Positions 48,141 to 63,858 of a stretch of DNA of 64,000 bases are shown here, piece by piece. The notes under the pieces are model-generated. The model saw only the letters and a program-made list of their open reading frames with translations. It had not been told where the DNA came from and ran no database searches. The stretch lies in NCBI RefSeq assembly GCF_000330885.1, contig NC_020062.1, positions 1,868,374 through 1,932,373 on the forward strand. The letters are read 5' to 3'. The DNA is from Rhizobium tropici CIAT 899 (GTDB lineage: Bacteria > Pseudomonadota > Alphaproteobacteria > Rhizobiales > Rhizobiaceae). Each line of letters opens with the position of its first letter. Position 1 is the first letter of the stretch. The translations under genes and the position numbers were made by a program.

Positions 48141-48298
48141 CGCCACGCGGACGCGCGCAGCCCTCCTGAACGGGCGGCAACGGAAGTACCGCGCCGCGGA
48201 GCCATGTCGATAAGGATGGCATGCGGCCCTATGTCCGGTTGCCTCCGGGCTGGAGCGCGCTAACTTACGGTAGTCGACACTCTTCATTTGAGGCTGAC

Positions 48299-49471
48299 AT
48301 GTCCGACGATGTCTTGCTGACATTCAATGCCGGCTCCTCGACCTTGAAAATCGGGGTCTTCGAGCTGACGGCAAAGGAACCGAGAAATGTCGGCCGCGGC
48401 AAGATCGATTTCGATCAGAGCCCATTGATGCTCCGCTATTCCATAGGCCCGGATCGATACGAGAAGGCGATCCGGGGCGATAATGGCGGGCAGTTCGTCT
48501 CCGTCATATCCGAAACGCTGGATCATTTGCTGACCCACCTTCCCGGCAGGCTCCGGGCGGTTGCCCATCGTGTCGTCCACGGCGGCATGATGTTTCAAGA
48601 GGCTATCCTCTTGGATGACGCTGCGATCGAGCGGATCGAGAAGCTGGTACCCCTAGCGCCCCTGCACCAGCCTCAGGCCCTGCGTGCCATTCGGTCGATG
48701 AAAACGCTGCGTCCGGACGTCCAGCAGACCGCCTCCTTCGACACGGCTTTTCATTCGTCGCAAGCCGACGTCGTGCGACGGCTGGCGATACCGCGCGCCA
48801 TGCATGACGATGGCGTGCGCCGCTACGGCTTTCACGGGCTCTCCTACAAATACGTCGCTGCGAGGCTTCGAGAGATCGATCCGGGAGCAGCGAAGGGCAA
48901 GGTCGTTGCCTGCCATCTCGGCAGCGGCGCCAGCCTGTGCGCGATGGAAAACGGCATCAGCCGCGACACGAGCATGGGGTTTTCGGCGCTCGACGGCATC
49001 CCCATGGCAACGCGTCCGGGCTGGCTGGATCCCGGCGCCCTGCTCTACCTCATGAGGACGGGAATGCGGCAACCCGAACGGATCGAGGATTTCCTCTACC
49101 ATCAATGCGGCCTGCTCGGCGTCTCCGGTATCAGCGGCGACACGCGGGTTCTGCTCGATGACAAGAGTCCTGAAGCGGCCGAGGCCATAGATCTATTCTG
49201 CTTGCGTATATCGGGTGAGATCGGGCGGCTATGCGCGACGATCGGCGGTCTCGAGGCCATCGTCTTCACCGCCGGCATCGGCGAGAATCAGCCGCAGATC
49301 AGGACCCGCGTCGCACAAAGGTTGCAGTGGTTGGGTATCGAGATCGATGAAGACGCGAGCATGCGCAATGCGATCGCAATCAACGCGGCGTCCAGCCGCG
49401 TGAAGCTGTTAGTGATCCCGACCGACGAGGAACGTGTGATCGCCGAGGAGGCCGTTGCCCTGATTGCTTGA
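48299..49471 (+). CDS. ackA: Acetate kinase
   Basis: This 390-residue enzyme interconverts acetyl phosphate and acetate with ATP formation. Acetate-kinase signatures are [18 protein letters not shown] (N-terminal), AHRVVHGG (catalytic Arg), [29 protein letters not shown] and [13 protein letters not shown] 48299 is chosen because it places LLTFNAGSS at the N-terminus as in the family. It is followed after 19 bases by phosphoketolase, whose product acetyl phosphate is the substrate here. Confidence 0.95.
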
Positions 49472-49490
49472 CGAAAACGAGGAGACGCAG

Positions 49491-51866
49491 ATGAATGCCG
49501 TTGCCACACCGCTTTCGCCCGAAGAACTCTCCCTGATCGACCGTTACTGGAAAGCGGCCAATTATCTGTCGGTCGGTCAGATCTATCTGATGGACAATCC
49601 GCTGCTGCGCGAACCGCTCAAGCCTGAGCATATCAAGCCGAGACTGCTCGGCCACTGGGGCACGACGCCCGGATTGAATTTCATCTATGCCCACCTCAAT
49701 CGCATCATCAAGGCGCGCGACCTCGATGTCATCTATATATGCGGCCCGGGGCATGGTGGCCCTGGCATGGTCGCCAACACCTATCTCGAGGGCACCTATA
49801 GCGAGATCTATCCGAATATTGCCGAAACGGCGGAAGGGATGCAAAGGCTGTTCAAGCAGTTTTCCTTTCCCGGCGGCATTCCGAGCCACGCCGCACCGGA
49901 GACGCCCGGCTCCATTCATGAGGGCGGCGAGCTCGGCTATGCGCTGGTGCATGCCTATGGCGCCGCTTTCGACAATCCCGATCTGATCGTTGTCTGCGTG
50001 GTCGGCGATGGCGAGGCCGAAACCGGACCTCTGGCGGCAAGCTGGCATTCCAACAAGTTCCTCAATCCGGCGCGCGACGGCGCAGTCCTGCCCATCCTCC
50101 ACCTCAACGGCTACAAGATCGCCAATCCGACGATCCTCGGCCGCGCAAGCGACGACGATCTGCGCAAGCTGTTCTGGGGCTATGGCTATGAACCCTTCTT
50201 TGTCGAAGGCCATGAGCCGGGCGCCATGCATCTGGCCATGGCCGACACATTCGACCGCGTCTTCGACCGCATCCGTGACATACAGAAAAACGCACGCGAA
50301 AAGACCTCGTCCGAAGACATGCCGCGCTGGCCCATGATCGTGCTGCGAAGCCCGAAGGGTTGGACCGGCCCCAAGCAGGTCGATGGCAAGAAGGTCGAAG
50401 GCTTCTGGCGCGCGCATCAGGTGCCGGTCGCCAATTGCCGCGGCGACGAGGCACACCGCAAGATTCTGGAAGATTGGATGCGCAGCTATGATCCGGATGA
50501 CCTCTTCGATCACGAAGGGCGGCTGAAGGCCGAGCTGCAGGCGCTGGCGCCGCGCGGCGAAAGGCGCATGGGCGCCAATCCCCACGCCAATGGCGGCCTG
50601 CTGCGCCGGGAGCTTCTGGCTCCCTCCATCGAGGACTATGCCATTGAGATCGGCGAGCGCGGCAGCAAGCAGGTGCAGTCCACCGAAATCCTCGGTCACT
50701 ATCTCCGCGACACGCTGAAGCTCAATGATATCGAGCAGAATTTCCGCATCTTCGGTCCCGACGAGACGGAATCGAACCGGCTCGGCAGCGTCTTTGAAGC
50801 CACGGATCGCGTCTGGATGGAGGAGATCGAAGATTACGACGTCCATCTTTCCCGCGACGGACGGGTGATGGAAGTGCTCAGCGAACATCTATGCCAGGGC
50901 TGGCTGGAGGGATATTTGCTTACCGGCCGGCATGGGCTTTTTTCGTGCTATGAGGCTTTCATCCACATCGTCGATTCCATGTTCAACCAGCACGCCAAAT
51001 GGCTGAAGGTTTCGCGCGAATTGCCGTGGCGCAAGCCGATCTCATCGCTGAACTATCTTTTGACGTCGCATGTCTGGCGGCAGGATCATAACGGCTTTTC
51101 CCACCAGGATCCTGGCTTTGTCGATCTCGTCGCCAATAAGAAGGCCGACATCGTGCGCATCTATCTGCCGCCGGATGCCAATACGCTGCTGTGGGTCGGC
51201 GATCACTGCCTCAGGACCTACGACCGGATCAACGTCATCGTTGCCGGCAAGCAGCCGGAATCGCAATGGCTCAGCATCGACGAGGCGGCCGCCCATTGTA
51301 AGGCCGGCGTCGGCATCTGGGATTGGGCGAGCTACGAAGACAACACGATCGCCCCCGACGTCGTGATGGCCTGCGCAGGCGATGTCCCGACCATGGAAAC
51401 GCTTGCCGCCGTCATGCTGCTGCACGAGGCGATCCCCGATCTCAAGATCCGCACGGTGAACGTGGTCGATCTTCTGGCCCTGCAGGACCCGCAACAGCAC
51501 CCGCACGGCCTTGATCATGAGGCATTCGATCAGATCTTCACCACCGACAAGCCGGTGATCTTCGCCTATCACGGCTATCCCTACCTGATCCACCGCCTGA
51601 CCTATCGGCGGACCAACCATGACAACATCCATGTTCGCGGCTTTATCGAGGAGGGCACGACGACCACACCATTCGATATGACCGTGCTGAACGAGCTGGA
51701 CCGCTATCATCTCGCCTTGGAGGCAATCAACCGTATCCCCGGCCTGTCGGAAAAAGTACCGGAGGTCGTGGATGGCCTGAAGGCAAGGCTCGTCAGGCAT
51801 CACGATTACGTCCGGCGGCACGGTGAGGATATGCCGGAAGTTCGCGACTGGCGGTGGAAACGATAG
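49491..51866 (+). CDS. xfp: Xylulose-5-phosphate/fructose-6-phosphate phosphoketolase
   Basis: This 791-residue thiamine-diphosphate enzyme splits xylulose-5-P or fructose-6-P to acetyl phosphate plus glyceraldehyde-3-P or erythrose-4-P. Hallmarks are [30 protein letters not shown], the ThDP motif [20 protein letters not shown] and [12 protein letters not shown] 49491 follows GGAG. With acetate kinase it gives a carbon-saving route to acetate and ATP, a pairing common in rhizobia. Confidence 0.96.
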
Positions 51867-57164: not shown

Positions 57165-58862
57165 ATGCCCGAGAACCGAGTGGATCGGTCGCAGCAAACT
57201 CTCTATGGGTCCGAATCCGATAACGGTTTAGAGGCGACGGTCTCGCTTTGGGATCTGGATTTCAAACTGCTCGATTGCTCGAAGCGATTCAAAGAGCATA
57301 TCGGTCTTGCGCCTCGGAGCGAGGTATCCTTGTGGGAAGCCTATCCTGCGCTTGCGAAACCGACGCTTGCCGAGCTTATTCATAAAGTCATAGACACAGG
57401 CGAACCTTGCACGATCCAGTTCGACGATCCGACGCAGGGAAAGCGCCGCTTGCTCGCCTCCCGTATCCGAGTGGGGCTTCTGATCGTCGAAACCAATGGA
57501 GCACATGAAAGCCCATCGTCCGAAGACAATGAAAAAGCACAGCTCATCCATCAGGCAACGCACGATGTCCTGACCGGACTGCCCAATCGCCGCCAATTCA
57601 GCGCGGCTCTGACGCAATTGCTTCCGGTCACCGGCAAGATCGGGCCGGCGCTGATGCAGCTCGACCTCGATGATTTCAAGCCCGTCAACGACACACTCGG
57701 CCACGGAGCCGGCGACATCGTGCTGAAACTCGCCGCCGAGAGGATTACGAAAGCACTCGGCCGCGGCGGAACGGCCTACCGTCTCGCTGGCGATGAATTC
57801 GCCATCATCCAGATCGGTCCGCAGCGGGCCCTGGAGGCGGAACGGTTGGCAGACGCGCTGGTGGCCGAATTCAAAAAGCCGTTCACGGTCAACGGCATCT
57901 CACTTTTCGTCGGCGTCAGCGTGGGGATCGCAATCGCGCCGCGCGACGGCAACGAGGGAGAACAGCTGATGAAGGCTGCCGATGTCGCCCTTTATGCCGC
58001 TAAGAAGGAAGGGCGGCGGCGGGCGCGGACGTTCGATCCGGCCATGCTGATCGTGGTCGAACAAAGGGAGCTGCTGCGGCGCAGCCTGCGCGTGGCACTA
58101 CAGCGCGATGAGTTCTTCATCGAATATCAGCCGCTGGTGGAGCCTCCGTCCAATGTGGTCGGATTCGAGGCGCTCCTACGCTGGCGGCACCCGACCCTCG
58201 GGGTCATTCCGCCGGCAGCTTTCATTCCCATGGCCGAAGCCGATGGTCTTATGCGTGAAATCGGCCAGTGGATGCTGGAGGAAGCCTGCCGCGAGGCCTT
58301 GGCATGGCCGGATCACTATACGCTTGCCGTCAATCTTTCTCCCGCGGAGTTCCTGACGCCGGGCCTCACCGATCGCGTTTCTCAAACGCTGGATATCGTC
58401 GGATTTCCAGCCGAACGCCTGGAACTGGAAATCACCGAAGGTGTGCTTCTGGAGCGGACCATCAACAATCTCGACACGCTGAACACGCTGAACGTGCTCG
58501 GCATTCAGATTTCCCTCGATGATTTCGGCACCGAATATTCCTCGCTCAGCTACCTCAAGAATTTCCCCTTCGATACGATCAAGATCGATCGCTATTTCAT
58601 CAGGGATCTTTTGCAGGACGGCAAAAGCCAGGCCATTGTGCGCTCCGTCATCGGCCTTGCACATGGCCTGGGCATGCGGGTGACGGCGGAGGGTGTCGAG
58701 ACGCGGCAACAGGCGGCCTGGCTCCAGCAGGAGGGCTGCGACCGTCTGCAAGGCTATAGCATCAGCCCTCCGCTGAGCGCCGACAAGCTTGATGATTTCA
58801 TAAGGCAGGGTGCACGCGATCAGTCGGCCGCGACATTCGACGAATTTCACGCAAGTCCGTGA
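57165..58862 (+). CDS. GGDEF-EAL cyclic-di-GMP enzyme
   Basis: This 565-residue soluble protein has a PAS-like N-terminus (about 20-115), then GGDEF (about 125-290, opening THDVLTGLPNRRQF) and EAL (about 310-545). The GGDEF signature is AGDEF (about 206), a form often active, with no RxxD inhibitory site before it. The EAL domain keeps EALLRWRHP, Asn in AVNLSPAEF, LEITEG, LDDFGTEYSS, IKIDR and TAEGVET, so phosphodiesterase activity is likely. It would set cyclic-di-GMP levels. It is the first gene of a six-gene plus-strand operon, 44 bases before the next. Confidence 0.92.
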   Translation: MPENRVDRSQQTLYGSESDNGLEATVSLWDLDFKLLDCSKRFKEHIGLAPRSEVSLWEAYPALAKPTLAELIHKVIDTGEPCTIQFDDPTQGKRRLLASRIRVGLLIVETNGAHESPSSEDNEKAQLIHQATHDVLTGLPNRRQFSAALTQLLPVTGKIGPALMQLDLDDFKPVNDTLGHGAGDIVLKLAAERITKALGRGGTAYRLAGDEFAIIQIGPQRALEAERLADALVAEFKKPFTVNGISLFVGVSVGIAIAPRDGNEGEQLMKAADVALYAAKKEGRRRARTFDPAMLIVVEQRELLRRSLRVALQRDEFFIEYQPLVEPPSNVVGFEALLRWRHPTLGVIPPAAFIPMAEADGLMREIGQWMLEEACREALAWPDHYTLAVNLSPAEFLTPGLTDRVSQTLDIVGFPAERLELEITEGVLLERTINNLDTLNTLNVLGIQISLDDFGTEYSSLSYLKNFPFDTIKIDRYFIRDLLQDGKSQAIVRSVIGLAHGLGMRVTAEGVETRQQAAWLQQEGCDRLQGYSISPPLSADKLDDFIRQGARDQSAATFDEFHASP

Positions 58863-58906
58863 GTTTTTGAAGCGCATTTCATTCGGGAATTTTTCGAGAG
58901 GATACC

Positions 58907-59413
58907 ATGCGGGTGCAAGTGGACGCGGCTTTCGAGCCATTGCTTGAACTGGAAATGGAGATGGCGACCCTCGTGGCAGACTGGTCGAATTGCGATCAAT
59001 GTGCCGTTTACGTGGCTCGCATGGTCAGCCACGATCGGCACGATCCCATCCGCCATGCGAACCTGCTGTCGGCAGCCCTGAACGAGCTTTTCGAAATGTC
59101 GTTCCACACCAGAGAAAGCACCGGTACCCTTACCTTTCGCGTCTACCGAAATGGCTCGATCGAACGGATCGAACTGGCCTTTCCCTGCTCGGCCGAGCAG
59201 CGCAATTTGTATGAAACCATCGTCCAGCGCATTAGAAGCGGCCAGGCGCTCGCAAACTATCTCGATGTCATCACCGACGACACCGCGCGTGCCGAGCAGG
59301 CGATCCTCCTCGGCCTTGCCGTCAATTACGATGCCGACATCGAGCTGTCCATTCGGGATAAGGGAGCAACGACTTTCGTGGTAGATCTCGCGCTCGAAAG
59401 GCTACTCAATTGA
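58907..59413 (+). CDS. GHKL-ATPase-like switch protein (degenerate)
   Basis: This 168-residue soluble protein resembles anti-sigma-factor/switch kinases. LLSAALNELFEMSF is like the N-box of GHKL ATPases, followed by the strand TLTFRVYRNGSIERIELAFP and the closing TTFVVDLALERLL. The Asn of the N-box is retained (ALNELFE), but no glycine-rich G1/G2 boxes are seen, so ATP binding is uncertain. It overlaps the STAS-methyltransferase gene by 4 bases (TTGA), marking them as likely partners. Confidence 0.6.
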   Translation: MRVQVDAAFEPLLELEMEMATLVADWSNCDQCAVYVARMVSHDRHDPIRHANLLSAALNELFEMSFHTRESTGTLTFRVYRNGSIERIELAFPCSAEQRNLYETIVQRIRSGQALANYLDVITDDTARAEQAILLGLAVNYDADIELSIRDKGATTFVVDLALERLLN

Positions 59414-60585
59414 ACAACCGCTCCTCTGGCCGTTTCACAGCGCAATTTGATGCCAACAATCAAGAATTCTCCCTATCCGGAGTTCTGAGACCACATTCAG
59501 TTGCCGAGCTTGCCGATGATCTCGCCCTGCTGCGCAACGGCATCGAAACGGTGAACGGCGTCTGCTACGTCAATCTGAAACGCGTCATCCACATGAACAA
59601 TACGGCGTTCCGTGCCCTGACGCGTGTCCTGCTCGATGCCACGCGATCGCGGCCGGATCTCAAACTGACGGTCGTAGCTTCCAGCGTCGTTGCATGGGCA
59701 TCGCGACTGTTTCGCCATTTGAGCGATCTGTCACCCAACATCATCGTCGAGATCTATGATTCCGCCTTCTATCCCGGGCAGACATTCGTGGAGAATCAGA
59801 GCTTCATCCCGATCCTGCGAACCCAGACGAAGATGACTTGGCGGCACGAGCGCGAGATATTGCCGCGGCACGGCCTTCGAGAGGGTTTGCATATCGCCGA
59901 CATCTGCTGCGGCATCGGCGATTTCGCCATGCTGCTGCGGAAGGATTTCAAACCCGCGCGGATCGTTGCCCTCGACCATTCGATCCCCAGCCTGGAATAT
60001 GCCCGCAAGGTGGCGGAGGACTTCAATGTCCACGATATCGAATATACCTACGGCGATGCATCCCAGATGCTGTTCGAGAGCGACCAGTTCGATTTCGTGA
60101 CCTGCAGGCACTCGTTGCAGATCTTCGACCGCCCGGATGTCCTGCTTCGCGAACTCTATCGCATATGCAAGCCAGGCGGCAGGGTCTACATCACCAACGA
60201 GAAGAACTCCCATTGTCTTGGCGAGCCCAGAGCCGAAAGCATTCAATGGACCTATAACGAGGTCGCGAAACTGTTCGCGCATTTCGATATGGATGTCGAG
60301 ATGGGTCCCAAGGGCCGCCGCATGCTACTTGATGCCGGCTTCAAGGATGTGCGCATGGAAAGCTTCATGGTCACGAATCTCGATGGCGATCCGCAGGATT
60401 TCGCTGACATCATCACGGCATGGCAGAATGTCTATGCCGATGAAATGGCGGTTAGAAGAGGGGATTCGGCCGCATTTATCGAGCGATTCAAGCAAGGTTT
60501 CGCCGATCATATTTTTGCCGCGCTCCATCCAAGAGGCTATGCCGGCTGGCCGATCTGGGCTTCTTCGGGACAGAAACCGCTATGA
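59410..60585 (+). CDS. STAS-like domain fused to a SAM methyltransferase
   Basis: In this 391-residue protein, residues 1-120 follow the pattern of STAS anti-anti-sigma domains (FSLSGVLRPHSVAELADDLA, VCYVNLKRVIHMNNTAFRAL, where MNNTAF stands at the switch-serine site). Residues 130-391 are a class I SAM-dependent methyltransferase: motif I IADICCGIGDFAMLLRKDF (about 162), LDHSIPSLEYAR, DFVTCRHSLQIFD and LYRICKPGGRVYITNEKN. The start is TTG 59410, overlapping the previous stop. It could be the output protein whose methyltransferase activity is switched by phosphorylation at T/N near residue 70, which is inferred. Substrate unknown. Confidence 0.78.
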   Translation: MNNRSSGRFTAQFDANNQEFSLSGVLRPHSVAELADDLALLRNGIETVNGVCYVNLKRVIHMNNTAFRALTRVLLDATRSRPDLKLTVVASSVVAWASRLFRHLSDLSPNIIVEIYDSAFYPGQTFVENQSFIPILRTQTKMTWRHEREILPRHGLREGLHIADICCGIGDFAMLLRKDFKPARIVALDHSIPSLEYARKVAEDFNVHDIEYTYGDASQMLFESDQFDFVTCRHSLQIFDRPDVLLRELYRICKPGGRVYITNEKNSHCLGEPRAESIQWTYNEVAKLFAHFDMDVEMGPKGRRMLLDAGFKDVRMESFMVTNLDGDPQDFADIITAWQNVYADEMAVRRGDSAAFIERFKQGFADHIFAALHPRGYAGWPIWASSGQKPL

Positions 60586-62942
60586 CGGACGCGCCAATCG
60601 CCAAGCAACGGCTCGGACTGCGCTCATTTCGCGCCAAGTTTCTCCTCGTCGTCGGCGGAGCCGTTCTCTTCGACCTGCTCGTCAGCGGCGGCCTTGCTTT
60701 ATGGAACGTCCAGCGCCTTTCGCGCAACGCCACGACGGAAGTGGGACAAGGTCTCGAGAAAGCGAGCCAGGATTATATCGGCTCCTATGCGGATTCGACC
60801 GCCGCAGAGGTCGGTTTGCTGATCGACCAGGTCCATTCCGATGTGAAGGCGCTGACGGGCGTGCTGCAGGGGCAGATCGACAATCCGGCGCGGAGTGTCG
60901 ATGTCGGTGCTGCCATGAGCAGAGCGTCTCCAGGCGCTGTAACAGTGACCTACGACCAAGCCGGCCAGTGGTCACAAAACCTGCCCGGCACACCCTCGGT
61001 CGTCAGCGTCTGGGGTTACCTGCTTGATCAGGATCACCGTCCCCTGCCTCAGGTGCAGGCAGATATAGAATGGAGCGCGGTGCTCGATCTGGTTGCTCCT
61101 TCCTTGCTGCACAACGGCGCGTCGAAGCTGCAGATGTATTATATCGGCCCGAGGGAGCGTCCGATTTTCCGGACTGCTCCCTATACGACACAAGCACAGA
61201 CCTTTGACCGGCTCTATCCCGGCCACAACAGCTCCGATTTTTGGACATTCTTCTTTCCAGGCCTATACGAATCCTGGCAGCAATGGGCCTCCAACCCCTC
61301 ATCCCGCCCCGTTGCCGATTACATCACCCAGACGGCTCCCTATACCGACGCTATCACCGGCAAGCTGATCGTCAGCTTTTTCCATCCGCTCTGGACGCCC
61401 GATAGGCATCAGGTGGCCGGTGCGGCCGGCGCAGATATCACACTCACACAGCTTGCCGAGATCGTCGAACATGTGAAAGTCGCTCAAACCGGCTTCGGCT
61501 TTCTCGCCATGTCGAATGGGAATGTGGTCGCAATCAATCCCGTGGGCGAAAAGGTCATCGGCTTGCGCGCCGCCAACGATGCCGCCGCCAAGGGGGTTAC
61601 CGGCCTCGACCGATCCTTGCACAACAGCACGCAAACGGCCATTACCAAGCTGCCGCTCGACGCCGACGGCGTGATCCAGCACATCAGCCTCCGCGAACAG
61701 GGAGAGGACGTTCCGTATCTCGCGGTCGTCAAGCAATTGCGCCCGACCAATCTCTGGGTGGACGGACCGGTCAAGAGCGAGGTCATGTCGCTCGGGATCG
61801 TGGTGCCCGAGCGCGAGATCTACGCCTCGCTCATCGCCGCCAAGGATGAAATATCGCGGGCGACCAACCGCATTCTGCTCTATCAGATCATGGCCGTTCT
61901 GGTGTCTCTGATGATCGTCACGGCGGCGGTCTTTGCCGCCTCGAAACGCGTCACCAGCGGCATCAGCGCGCTGGCAAGCGCCGCAAAGCGCATACAGGCG
62001 AAGGATTATTCGGTCCGGGTCGATATCTCGACCAGGGACGAAGTGGGGGATGCCGGTATCGCTTTCAACAGGATGGCGGAGGATATCAGCTTCCACACGG
62101 AAAACCTCGAAAAGCTTGTTTCGGACCGGACCAGCGAGATCGAGGCGGCCAAGGAGGAGATCTCAACCCTCAACAGCCAATTGAAGAACGAAAACCTGCG
62201 GCTGGGTGCGGAACTCAACGTCGCCAGGCAGATCCAGCTCATGGTCCTGCCGCGGGCCAAGGAACTGACGGCAATCAACAATCTGGAGATCGCCGCCTAT
62301 ATGCGCCCGGCCGATGAAGTCGGCGGCGACTACTATGATGTTCTGCAGAACGGAAAGAACCTGAAGATCGGCATCGGCGACGTGACCGGCCATGGGCTGG
62401 AAAGCGGTGTGCTGATGCTGATGGTCCAGTCGATTGCCCGCGCCCTGCAGGAGGCAGGTGAGATGGACCCGGCAAAATTCCTGACCGATCTCAACCGCGC
62501 AATCTTCAAGAACATCGAACGGACCCGCACCGACAAGCATATTACCTTGTCGTTCCTCGACTACGACGGCGAGAGGCTGACGATATCGGGCCAGCATGAA
62601 GACATGATCATCATTCGCCGGGATGGCAAAGTGGAGCGCATAGATACGGGCGATCTCGGTCTTCCGGTCGGTCTCGAGCCTGATATCGCTCCCTTCATCG
62701 ATACGCGGCAAATACCCTTTGAGAAAGGCGACATGGTTGTCCTGCATACCGATGGCGTCACGGAAGCGGAGAACTCGAAGGGCGAGCTGTTTGGCTTCGA
62801 TAGGCTTTTGGAGGATGCGCGCCGCCTGCATGGCGGGACTGCGGAAGAAGTCGTCGAGGGCATACTCGACGATTTGATGACTTACATCGGAACCCACAAG
62901 ATCCATGACGATATCACCCTTGTGGTGATGCGGCACAGGTGA
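60582..62942 (+). CDS. Membrane Cache-HAMP-SpoIIE protein phosphatase
   Basis: This 786-residue sensor phosphatase has membrane helix 1 at residues 17-40 and a large periplasmic Cache-type sensor (about 45-420). Helix 2 (about 429-450), HAMP (about 452-505) and a coiled coil (505-545) follow. The PP2C-like SpoIIE domain (546-786) keeps the metal Asp residues in DEVGGDYYDVL, GDVTGHGLESG, LHTDGVTEAEN and DDITLVVM. It would dephosphorylate STAS partners on an external signal, as RsbU or SiaA do. Stop/start overlaps couple it with the methyltransferase gene before it. Confidence 0.93.
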   Translation: MTDAPIAKQRLGLRSFRAKFLLVVGGAVLFDLLVSGGLALWNVQRLSRNATTEVGQGLEKASQDYIGSYADSTAAEVGLLIDQVHSDVKALTGVLQGQIDNPARSVDVGAAMSRASPGAVTVTYDQAGQWSQNLPGTPSVVSVWGYLLDQDHRPLPQVQADIEWSAVLDLVAPSLLHNGASKLQMYYIGPRERPIFRTAPYTTQAQTFDRLYPGHNSSDFWTFFFPGLYESWQQWASNPSSRPVADYITQTAPYTDAITGKLIVSFFHPLWTPDRHQVAGAAGADITLTQLAEIVEHVKVAQTGFGFLAMSNGNVVAINPVGEKVIGLRAANDAAAKGVTGLDRSLHNSTQTAITKLPLDADGVIQHISLREQGEDVPYLAVVKQLRPTNLWVDGPVKSEVMSLGIVVPEREIYASLIAAKDEISRATNRILLYQIMAVLVSLMIVTAAVFAASKRVTSGISALASAAKRIQAKDYSVRVDISTRDEVGDAGIAFNRMAEDISFHTENLEKLVSDRTSEIEAAKEEISTLNSQLKNENLRLGAELNVARQIQLMVLPRAKELTAINNLEIAAYMRPADEVGGDYYDVLQNGKNLKIGIGDVTGHGLESGVLMLMVQSIARALQEAGEMDPAKFLTDLNRAIFKNIERTRTDKHITLSFLDYDGERLTISGQHEDMIIIRRDGKVERIDTGDLGLPVGLEPDIAPFIDTRQIPFEKGDMVVLHTDGVTEAENSKGELFGFDRLLEDARRLHGGTAEEVVEGILDDLMTYIGTHKIHDDITLVVMRHR

Positions 62943-62946
62943 GGAA

Positions 62947-63501
62947 ATGACGACAGCAATTTTCGGCGAGGAACGTCTGGTTTCGTTCGACGCCACCAAT
63001 GCTCTTCGCATACGACTATTCGACGGACCGCTGCATCTGGCATGGCGTCATTCAGCCATGACATCCGACTTTATCGCGGAGACGATAGCGCTCGGCTTCC
63101 GCTCTTCCGAGCGCCAATACAAGACGGTGCGGCACGACATCGGTTACCTGACCAACGAGCTTATCGAAAATTCCATCAAATTCCGCGCCTCGGGCGAGAT
63201 CCTCATCGAGGCATTGAGGGATGGCCATTATTTCCGGATGCGGACCGTGAATTTGATCGACCGCGAAGCTATGGCGCGATTTCAACAATTATTATTGAGA
63301 GTTACCGCTGGCGATCCCGGCGATCTCCTCATAGAACAGATCGAAGCAAGCGTTCTTGCCGGCGACGATGCGTCCGGACTAGGACTGTTGACATTGATGA
63401 GCGACTACCAGGTTCAATTGGCCTGGCATTTCGATGAGAATGGCCCGCAAAAGCGGATCAAGCTCCAAACCTATGCCGCCATGGCGATTTCATCGGCATG
63501 A
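62947..63501 (+). CDS. GHKL-type switch kinase (slr1658/DUF6272-like)
   Basis: This 184-residue protein matches the cyanobacterial slr1658-like family: LAWRHSAMTSDFIAETIALG, the N-box YLTNELIENSIKFRASGEIL, DPGDLLIEQIEASV and GLGLLTLMSDYQVQLAW. The family resembles the SiaB kinase of Pseudomonas and anti-sigma kinases, which phosphorylate a STAS partner. It follows the phosphatase by 4 bases and precedes a stand-alone STAS gene, its probable partner. Confidence 0.8.
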   Translation: MTTAIFGEERLVSFDATNALRIRLFDGPLHLAWRHSAMTSDFIAETIALGFRSSERQYKTVRHDIGYLTNELIENSIKFRASGEILIEALRDGHYFRMRTVNLIDREAMARFQQLLLRVTAGDPGDLLIEQIEASVLAGDDASGLGLLTLMSDYQVQLAWHFDENGPQKRIKLQTYAAMAISSA

Positions 63502-63519
63502 ACCCGCGAGAGGTCCTTT

Positions 63520-63858
63520 ATGGAAATCAAGGAAGAAGCATTCCGCGTCTGGTCCGAAGGCAGCACCTTATATTTTGACGGCACGATGCGCCTGGCTGGT
63601 CCCGATGCCTATGCACCGGTCTACGATCTGGCCAGGTCAGTTCTTCATGGGAGCGGAGGCAAAGCGACTTTCGATCTGACCGGTCTGCAATTCTTGAATT
63701 CTTCGGGCATCAACCTGCTTGCCAAACTGACCATAGAAGCACGCAAGCATCCGAATATTCACCTCACAGTGTGCGGCTCCTCGCAAATTCCCTGGCAGAT
63801 GAAATCATTACCGAACTTGAAAAAACTGCATCCGCGCCTGGATTTGCGCCTGACCTAG
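63520..63858 (+). CDS. STAS-domain anti-anti-sigma-like protein (slr1659-like)
   Basis: This 112-residue STAS protein has the switch motif [15 protein letters not shown] with paired serines for phosphorylation and an [18 protein letters not shown] end typical of slr1659-like proteins. It would be phosphorylated by the neighbouring GHKL kinase and reset by the SpoIIE phosphatase. Its downstream target is not encoded next to it inside the window. Confidence 0.88.

Follow-up and report, generated by a model that had tools for sequence, protein, structure and literature searches.

A probable bgr-type operon of Rhizobium tropici with one conserved partner switch and an apparently degenerate, methyltransferase-linked twin

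We analyzed a stretch of 64,000 nucleotides of Rhizobium tropici CIAT 899 (contig NC_020062.1, positions 1,868,374 to 1,932,373 of the forward strand; hereafter the window), in which a block of six genes lies at 57165..63858 on the + strand. Four of these genes make up two look-alike pairs of a GHKL-type partner-switch kinase and a STAS switch domain, called here pair a (GHKLa and STASa) and pair b (GHKLb and STASb). The unusual part is pair a: judging from its motifs, it no longer has key catalytic residues, and it is joined to a methyltransferase that looks intact. The block is probably an ortholog of the bgr operon of Sinorhizobium meliloti with one working partner switch and an inactive twin that would gate the methyltransferase by binding. 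A sequence-only reading of the window had proposed that one external signal resets two switches; a conserved but degenerate twin joined to a methyltransferase would be an interesting replacement for that proposal. The genes and their signatures are as follows.

57165..58862, + strand: GGDEF-EAL protein, probable BgrR ortholog (Pfam GGDEF 1e-40, EAL 3e-74)
57786-57800, + strand: AGDEF signature of the GGDEF-EAL gene
58167-58184, + strand: EALLRW of the GGDEF-EAL gene
58907..59413, + strand: GHKLa, degenerate partner-switch kinase fold, probable BgrS (letter assigned in this analysis)
59081..59098, + strand: N-box equivalent of GHKLa, N59-E-L-F-E-M64, Glu retained and Asn gone
59294..59305, + strand: G-box equivalent of GHKLa, E130-Q-A-I133, the window protein having neither Gly of GHKLb
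59410..60585, + strand: STASa fused to a class I S-adenosylmethionine (SAM)-dependent methyltransferase, probable BgrT (letter assigned in this analysis)
59596..59607, + strand: STASa site N63-N-T-A66, versus N-S-S-G in STASb, acceptor Ser gone
59896..59928, + strand: SAM motif ADICCGIGDFA of the methyltransferase, intact
60582..62942, + strand: HAMP-SpoIIE phosphatase, probable BgrU (SpoIIE 3e-41, HAMP 1e-10)
62947..63501, + strand: GHKLb, intact switch kinase by its motifs, probable BgrW (slr1658_superfam, 165 bits, cut-off 100)
63154..63171, + strand: N-box NELIEN of GHKLb
63373..63393, + strand: G-box SGLGLLT of GHKLb
63520..63858, + strand: STASb, free STAS switch protein, probable BgrV (slr1659_superfam, 128 bits, cut-off 100)
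63700..63702, + strand: predicted phospho-acceptor Ser61 of STASb, in NSSG

The genes are real and their content is as first described, namely a GGDEF-EAL enzyme, two GHKL proteins, two STAS modules, and a Cache-HAMP-SpoIIE phosphatase, except that the dCache_1 match of the phosphatase (Pfam) is weak and below the cut-off. This phosphatase is the sole SpoIIE match in the window's genome. GHKLa scored 36 bits against slr1658_superfam and STASa 37 bits over residues 8-111 against slr1659_superfam, both under the 100-bit cut-offs reached by their counterparts of pair b. Profile alignments (hhalign) nevertheless joined GHKLa with GHKLb (96%, E 1.9e-9) and STASa with STASb (95%, E 1.7e-8), in agreement with the two GHKL/STAS pairs recognized earlier. 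The GHKL fold expected for 58907-59413 was recovered in an AlphaFold model with a mean predicted local distance difference test (pLDDT) score of 89.8, whose top structural matches were SiaB and SpoIIAB, SiaB being the closest. The STAS assignment of the N-terminus of 59410-60585 is supported by profile alignment. The AlphaFold model of this protein reached a mean pLDDT of only 54.7, and its methyltransferase part was too poor for a fold search. The methyltransferase part matched Methyltransf_25 (3e-19), and its 32 PDB sequence matches were assorted class I methyltransferases, giving no substrate clue. The GHKLb profile had no convincing match among PDB sequences.

A contig scan yielded 194 confirmed STAS-methyltransferase relatives, and the 80 best among them served as named loci. 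All six genes were collinear in 78 of the 80, so that the conserved co-occurrence anticipated by the sequence-only reading was found. The exceptions are L067, in which the GGDEF-EAL gene is inverted, and L045, which stops within the phosphatase gene at a contig edge. Ensifer aridi LMR001 has two operon copies on two contigs (L067 and L073), with the inversion in one. The named loci cover Rhizobium, Sinorhizobium/Ensifer, Neorhizobium, Pararhizobium, Mesorhizobium, and Aminobacter. A near-full-length STAS-methyltransferase was present in 46 of the 60 genomes of the window's genus, while the slr1659 cut-off was reached in 21/397 genomes of the order and 4/385 of the class, and the slr1658 cut-off in 7/398 genomes of the phylum (the window's own genome is included in each count). 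The spacing between the GHKLa and STAS-methyltransferase genes had a median of -4 nt (range -14 to 41) in the 80 loci.

The motif counts cover 96 copies of pair a and 95 of pair b, drawn from the window itself, the named loci (80), and 15 fetched operons that belong to other families. The motifs of pair b are almost invariant: N-box residues E71, E74, and N75 of GHKLb were each found in 95/95, as were S143, G146, and T149 of its G-box (G144 in 94/95), and STASb carried NSSG with S61 in 95/95. We take the first Ser of NSSG to be the phospho-acceptor, by analogy with SpoIIAA; Ser61 also aligned with a Ser of RsfB, although weakly (E 0.05). In GHKLa, on the other hand, the N-box Asn was present in 0/96, position 64 being V in 35, M in 33, T in 11, L in 9, I in 7, and A in 1, and the first G-box Gly (position 131) was kept in 2/96. 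The STASa site reads N63 in 96/96, then N (73), S (13), M (6), or A (4) at position 64, then mostly T or V, and then A in 96/96; all 15 operons of other families have N at the acceptor position. By sequence, the methyltransferase and the phosphatase look intact. Residues D164, C166, C167, G168, G170, and D171 of the methyltransferase were invariant (96/96), the conserved Asp of the four phosphatase motifs was found in 95/95, and both the AGDEF and the EAL catalytic residues were invariant in 83/83 GGDEF-EAL proteins, none of which (0/83) had an RxxD I-site. Judging from these residues, the GGDEF and EAL domains may both be active.

Degeneracy of pair a does not mean free decay. Against 16-17 close relatives, the median ratio of nonsynonymous to synonymous substitution rates (dN/dS) was 0.17 for GHKLa and 0.04 for STASa. 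The medians of the other parts were 0.10 (GHKLb), 0.04 (STASb), 0.05 (phosphatase), 0.12 (GGDEF-EAL protein), and 0.03 (methyltransferase domain). Pair a is thus under purifying selection although it is degenerate. Mean identity over 95 operons was lowest for GHKLa (46%), followed by GHKLb (54%), STASa (57%), STASb (67%), and the methyltransferase (80%).

Much of this system is already known from S. meliloti. According to excerpts of papers that cite Baena et al. (2019), the phosphatase BgrU and the kinase BgrW set the switch protein BgrV and so control the diguanylate cyclase BgrR, in an operon that includes BgrSTUWV (PMC8457831, PMC7647112). The six genes are collinear in S. meliloti 4H41 (L081), and the genome of this strain and the pSymB record of strain 1021 each have one SpoIIE match, which lies inside the orthologous operon (near 459-466 kb of pSymB). 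Because the sole SpoIIE match of the S. meliloti 4H41 genome lies in this operon, and because the six letters R, S, T, U, W, and V agree in number with six genes that include, in the excerpts, a phosphatase, a kinase, a switch protein, and a diguanylate cyclase, the block and the bgr operon are very probably orthologous, and the system would be largely known. The letters S, for GHKLa, and T, for the STAS-methyltransferase, are our own probable assignments. No title among the literature matches listed refers to a STAS-methyltransferase in such an operon, Baena et al. (2019) lying outside that coverage.

The switch and the methyltransferase also occur without the cyclic di-GMP (c-di-GMP) gene. 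Twenty further loci were fetched from other genomes and searched (another, L148, gave a chance-level STAS match only), and 19 of them contained GHKLa, the STAS-methyltransferase, the phosphatase, GHKLb, and STASb, in that order. The GGDEF-EAL gene accompanied six of these 19 double-pair operons: two from family f221 and four from the window's family, of which at least some share their species with named loci. It was not found in the other 13, with approximately 5 kb or more searched upstream. These 13 five-gene operons come from three other families, f23, f41, and f116, of which f116 belongs to another order. As they do without the GGDEF-EAL gene, the core of switch and methyltransferase can be separated from the c-di-GMP link, and this core with its methyltransferase output may be older than that link. 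The proposed c-di-GMP output agrees with what the excerpts report for the S. meliloti ortholog, but 13 of the 15 double-pair operons from outside the window's family lack the c-di-GMP gene. The second G-box Gly of GHKLa (position 133) was gone in all 83 operons with a GGDEF-EAL gene, the window included, and was kept in 13/96, which are exactly the five-gene operons (L145-L147, L169-L174, and L177-L180). The kinase site of GHKLa was eroded stepwise, as this Gly survives only in the five-gene operons, and the loss tracks the presence of the GGDEF-EAL gene.

A second SpoIIE gene is located nearby in 8 of the 13 five-gene operons (e.g., L146:5613-6578 and L170:7769-8707), and in L170 its neighbors are a gene for an RsbW-like ATPase and one for type VI secretion. 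At L181:4485-9140, from another class of the same phylum, a single intact-looking slr1658/slr1659 pair stands together with genes for a SpoIIE phosphatase, a PstS-like binding protein, and a GGDEF protein, and this module resembles Sia with a STAS protein in place of SiaC. Another single intact-looking pair, on a cyanobacterial plasmid (L186:4294-10286), lies between two genes for SulP-type transporters (so named from their sequence, without a family search) that have STAS and cyclic-nucleotide-binding-like parts.

We envisage that the N-terminal part of BgrU senses a signal that changes the activity of this phosphatase. GHKLb (BgrW) would phosphorylate STASb (BgrV) on Ser61 and BgrU would remove the phosphate, and the state of BgrV would set the activity of BgrR, the GGDEF-EAL enzyme, and in this way c-di-GMP and surface polysaccharide, the control of BgrR by BgrU/BgrW and BgrV being that published, in the excerpts cited above, for S. 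meliloti. The remaining steps are new here. GHKLa and the methyltransferase-fused STAS would make a second, largely phosphorylation-insensitive pair, in which GHKLa most likely holds the STAS-methyltransferase; free BgrV or BgrW may compete for these partners, and the single phospho-switch could thereby also control methyl transfer through partner exchange. Somewhat short of an even chance, we also suggest that a dead switch copy was recruited as a competitive binding module gating a methyltransferase, so that one phospho-switch would serve two outputs, that the core predates the c-di-GMP enzyme, that the dead kinase was eroded further after this enzyme joined, and that the methylation target is an undescribed signaling output.

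Several observations weigh against an inactive twin that acts by binding. GHKLa retains the N-box E60 and E63 in 96/96. Its five-gene forms keep the second Gly, and, judging from these residues, nucleotide binding or some activity might be left in GHKLa, above all in those forms. The acceptor Ser of STASa is kept in 13/96, though not in the window: 12 are Rhizobium or Neorhizobium/other rhizobial loci and one is a Mesorhizobium locus, and none of them has the GHKLa Asn. In addition, the phosphorylated form of BgrV promotes mixed-linkage beta-glucan synthesis, as stated in an excerpt of PMC11619594, the reverse of what an excerpt of PMC8457831 gives for SiaC. Finally, a partnering test by partial distance-matrix correlation, which is weak, ignores kinship, and used three overlapping data sets (95, 82, and 26 operons), failed to single out the expected pairs: partial r was 0.40/0.39/0.29 for GHKLa-STASa and 0.03/-0.13/0.27 for GHKLb-STASb, against 0.39/0.50/0.33 for GHKLb-STASa and 0.16/-0.24/0.44 for GHKLa-STASb.

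The near equality of GHKLb-STASa and GHKLa-STASa in this test favors a cross-acting pair, in which STASa is a second substrate or a binding partner of GHKLb (BgrW), or GHKLa serves GHKLb as the inactive regulatory subunit of a heterodimer, and the methyltransferase is an additional client of BgrW instead of one of GHKLa. Partner-switch kinases such as SpoIIAB and RsbW are dimers, which would fit a heterodimer. Such an arrangement is nonetheless rather unlikely in our judgment, since the correlations are uncorrected for phylogeny and the GHKLa and STAS-methyltransferase genes overlap or lie close, suggesting that their products act together.

Two working switches, as first proposed, would have each GHKL protein phosphorylate its neighboring STAS and one phosphatase reset both, and the outputs, c-di-GMP and methylation, would run in parallel. 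The adjacency of both pairs, seen in 19/20 fetched loci and in the 78 named loci that are collinear, the kinase fold of GHKLa with its N-box Glu, and the Ser and Gly residues surviving in some other operons speak for it. However, the N-box Asn is missing throughout, the first and second G-box Gly are absent in 94/96 and 83/96 GHKLa, the acceptor Ser is absent in 83/96 STASa including all 15 from outside the family, and the Ser and the Gly survive in different operons. We regard two working switches as improbable, because with most catalytic and acceptor residues of pair a gone the phosphatase would have little to reset there.

As for the output genes, excerpts of PMC9495663 and PMC7902896 give the order bgsB-bgsA in S. 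meliloti, and we took as BgsA the GT2 gene of pSymB (L202) that follows an HlyD-type gene, a candidate chosen without annotation. A close bgsA homolog (71-92% identity) was found in 28 of the 46 operon-bearing genomes of the genus and in none of the 14 operon-lacking ones (Fisher p 2.9e-5, relatedness ignored). Two of the 28 homologs are fragmented and 26 are almost complete, although three of these 26 contain a single internal stop codon. The homolog lies within 12 kb of the operon in 4/28. The best bgsA match was 33% in the window's genome and 40% in the 15 operon-bearing genomes from outside the family, so none of these has a close bgsA. A role of the operon in controlling mixed-linkage beta-glucan and nothing else, with the extra pair and the methyltransferase merely tuning this pathway, agrees with what is published for S. 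meliloti (excerpts of PMC8457831, PMC7647112, and PMC11619594) and with the bgsA association, but it is the least probable of the explanations, very improbable in fact, because 18 of the 46 operon-bearing genus genomes, the window's own included, have no close bgsA, as is also true of the 15 genomes from outside the family.

A CuxR/APS-type exopolysaccharide cluster is located directly downstream of the window (C4:1932723-1940894; L201:1224-9395). Its genes encode an epimerase, a GT2 synthase (72% to S. meliloti), a DUF995 protein, a GH26-like protein, another DUF995-like protein, and an AraC regulator (45%). Its content matches, without uxe, the c-di-GMP-controlled cuxR and uxs1-uxe-apsS-apsH1-apsE-apsH2 cluster of S. 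meliloti described in an excerpt of PMC7902896, and on pSymB a matching APS cluster lies approximately 5 kb beyond the operon. Close APS synthase homologs (71% or more) were found in 22/46 operon-bearing versus 0/14 operon-lacking genomes, within 12 kb in 9/22. Homologs of a second group (59-62%) are spread more widely, one operon-lacking genome (G014) being among those that have them. Neither a close bgsA nor an APS-type synthase was found in 9/46 operon-bearing genus genomes, and 1/15 operon-bearing genomes from outside the family had a 51% match to the APS synthase. Upstream of the block on the same strand, genes for acetate kinase and phosphoketolase stand in tandem (window 48221-51866).

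The doubled switch is accordingly corrected to one live and one degenerate switch, by the motifs, that are kept together in several alphaproteobacterial families. The block offers a clear setting in which to study the function of inactive GHKL/STAS pairs, and it would tie the control of rhizobial surface polysaccharide to an uncharacterized methyltransferase.

Among known systems, the residues of a partner switch, namely the GHKL N- and G-boxes, the STAS Ser, and the SpoIIE Asp, were all found with pair b, while pair a alone has neither the kinase Asn in any copy nor the acceptor Ser in most. The bgr operon of S. meliloti shares six letters for six genes, with the phosphatase, the kinase, the switch protein, and the diguanylate cyclase among them in the excerpts, and no difference in gene content is shown; the window's genome differs in its want of a close bgsA, with the APS-type cluster downstream.

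SiaABCD of Pseudomonas aeruginosa likewise combines a SpoIIE-type phosphatase, a GHKL kinase, a phospho-switch protein, and a GGDEF enzyme, and the earlier comparison with it holds in mechanism. It fails in membership: the NCBIfam cut-offs for SiaA, SiaB, and SiaD were not reached, and we rejected the block as a SiaABCD member. With the SiaB-family kinase model (NF038262, cut-off 85), GHKLb scored 12 bits and GHKLa gave no hit, while the distant GHKLb of L146 reached 26 bits; some GHKLb homologs carry DUF6272. As for SiaC (DUF1987), STASb matched only slr1659, MlaB, and anti-sigma-antagonist models up to E 1, and DUF1987 was not among the best 25 of 44 family matches of the STAS-methyltransferase. 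The switch protein here is a STAS protein (slr1659) rather than DUF1987, there are two GHKL/STAS pairs and a methyltransferase, and the enzyme is GGDEF-EAL rather than GGDEF.

The slr1658/slr1659 pairs of cyanobacteria and other bacteria are related in that GHKLb and STASb reach the cut-offs of these superfamilies, but those pairs are single, as in the cyanobacterial plasmid (L186) and in G875, where the pair stands beside SpoIIE and GGDEF genes, and they have other neighbors and no methyltransferase fusion. The HptB-HsbR-HsbA-HsbD system of P. aeruginosa differs in that HsbR is a response regulator, the switch protein is single, and there is no methyltransferase. What it shares with the block, according to excerpts of its published description, is a STAS-type protein, HsbA, whose phosphorylation state picks its partners, a diguanylate cyclase included.

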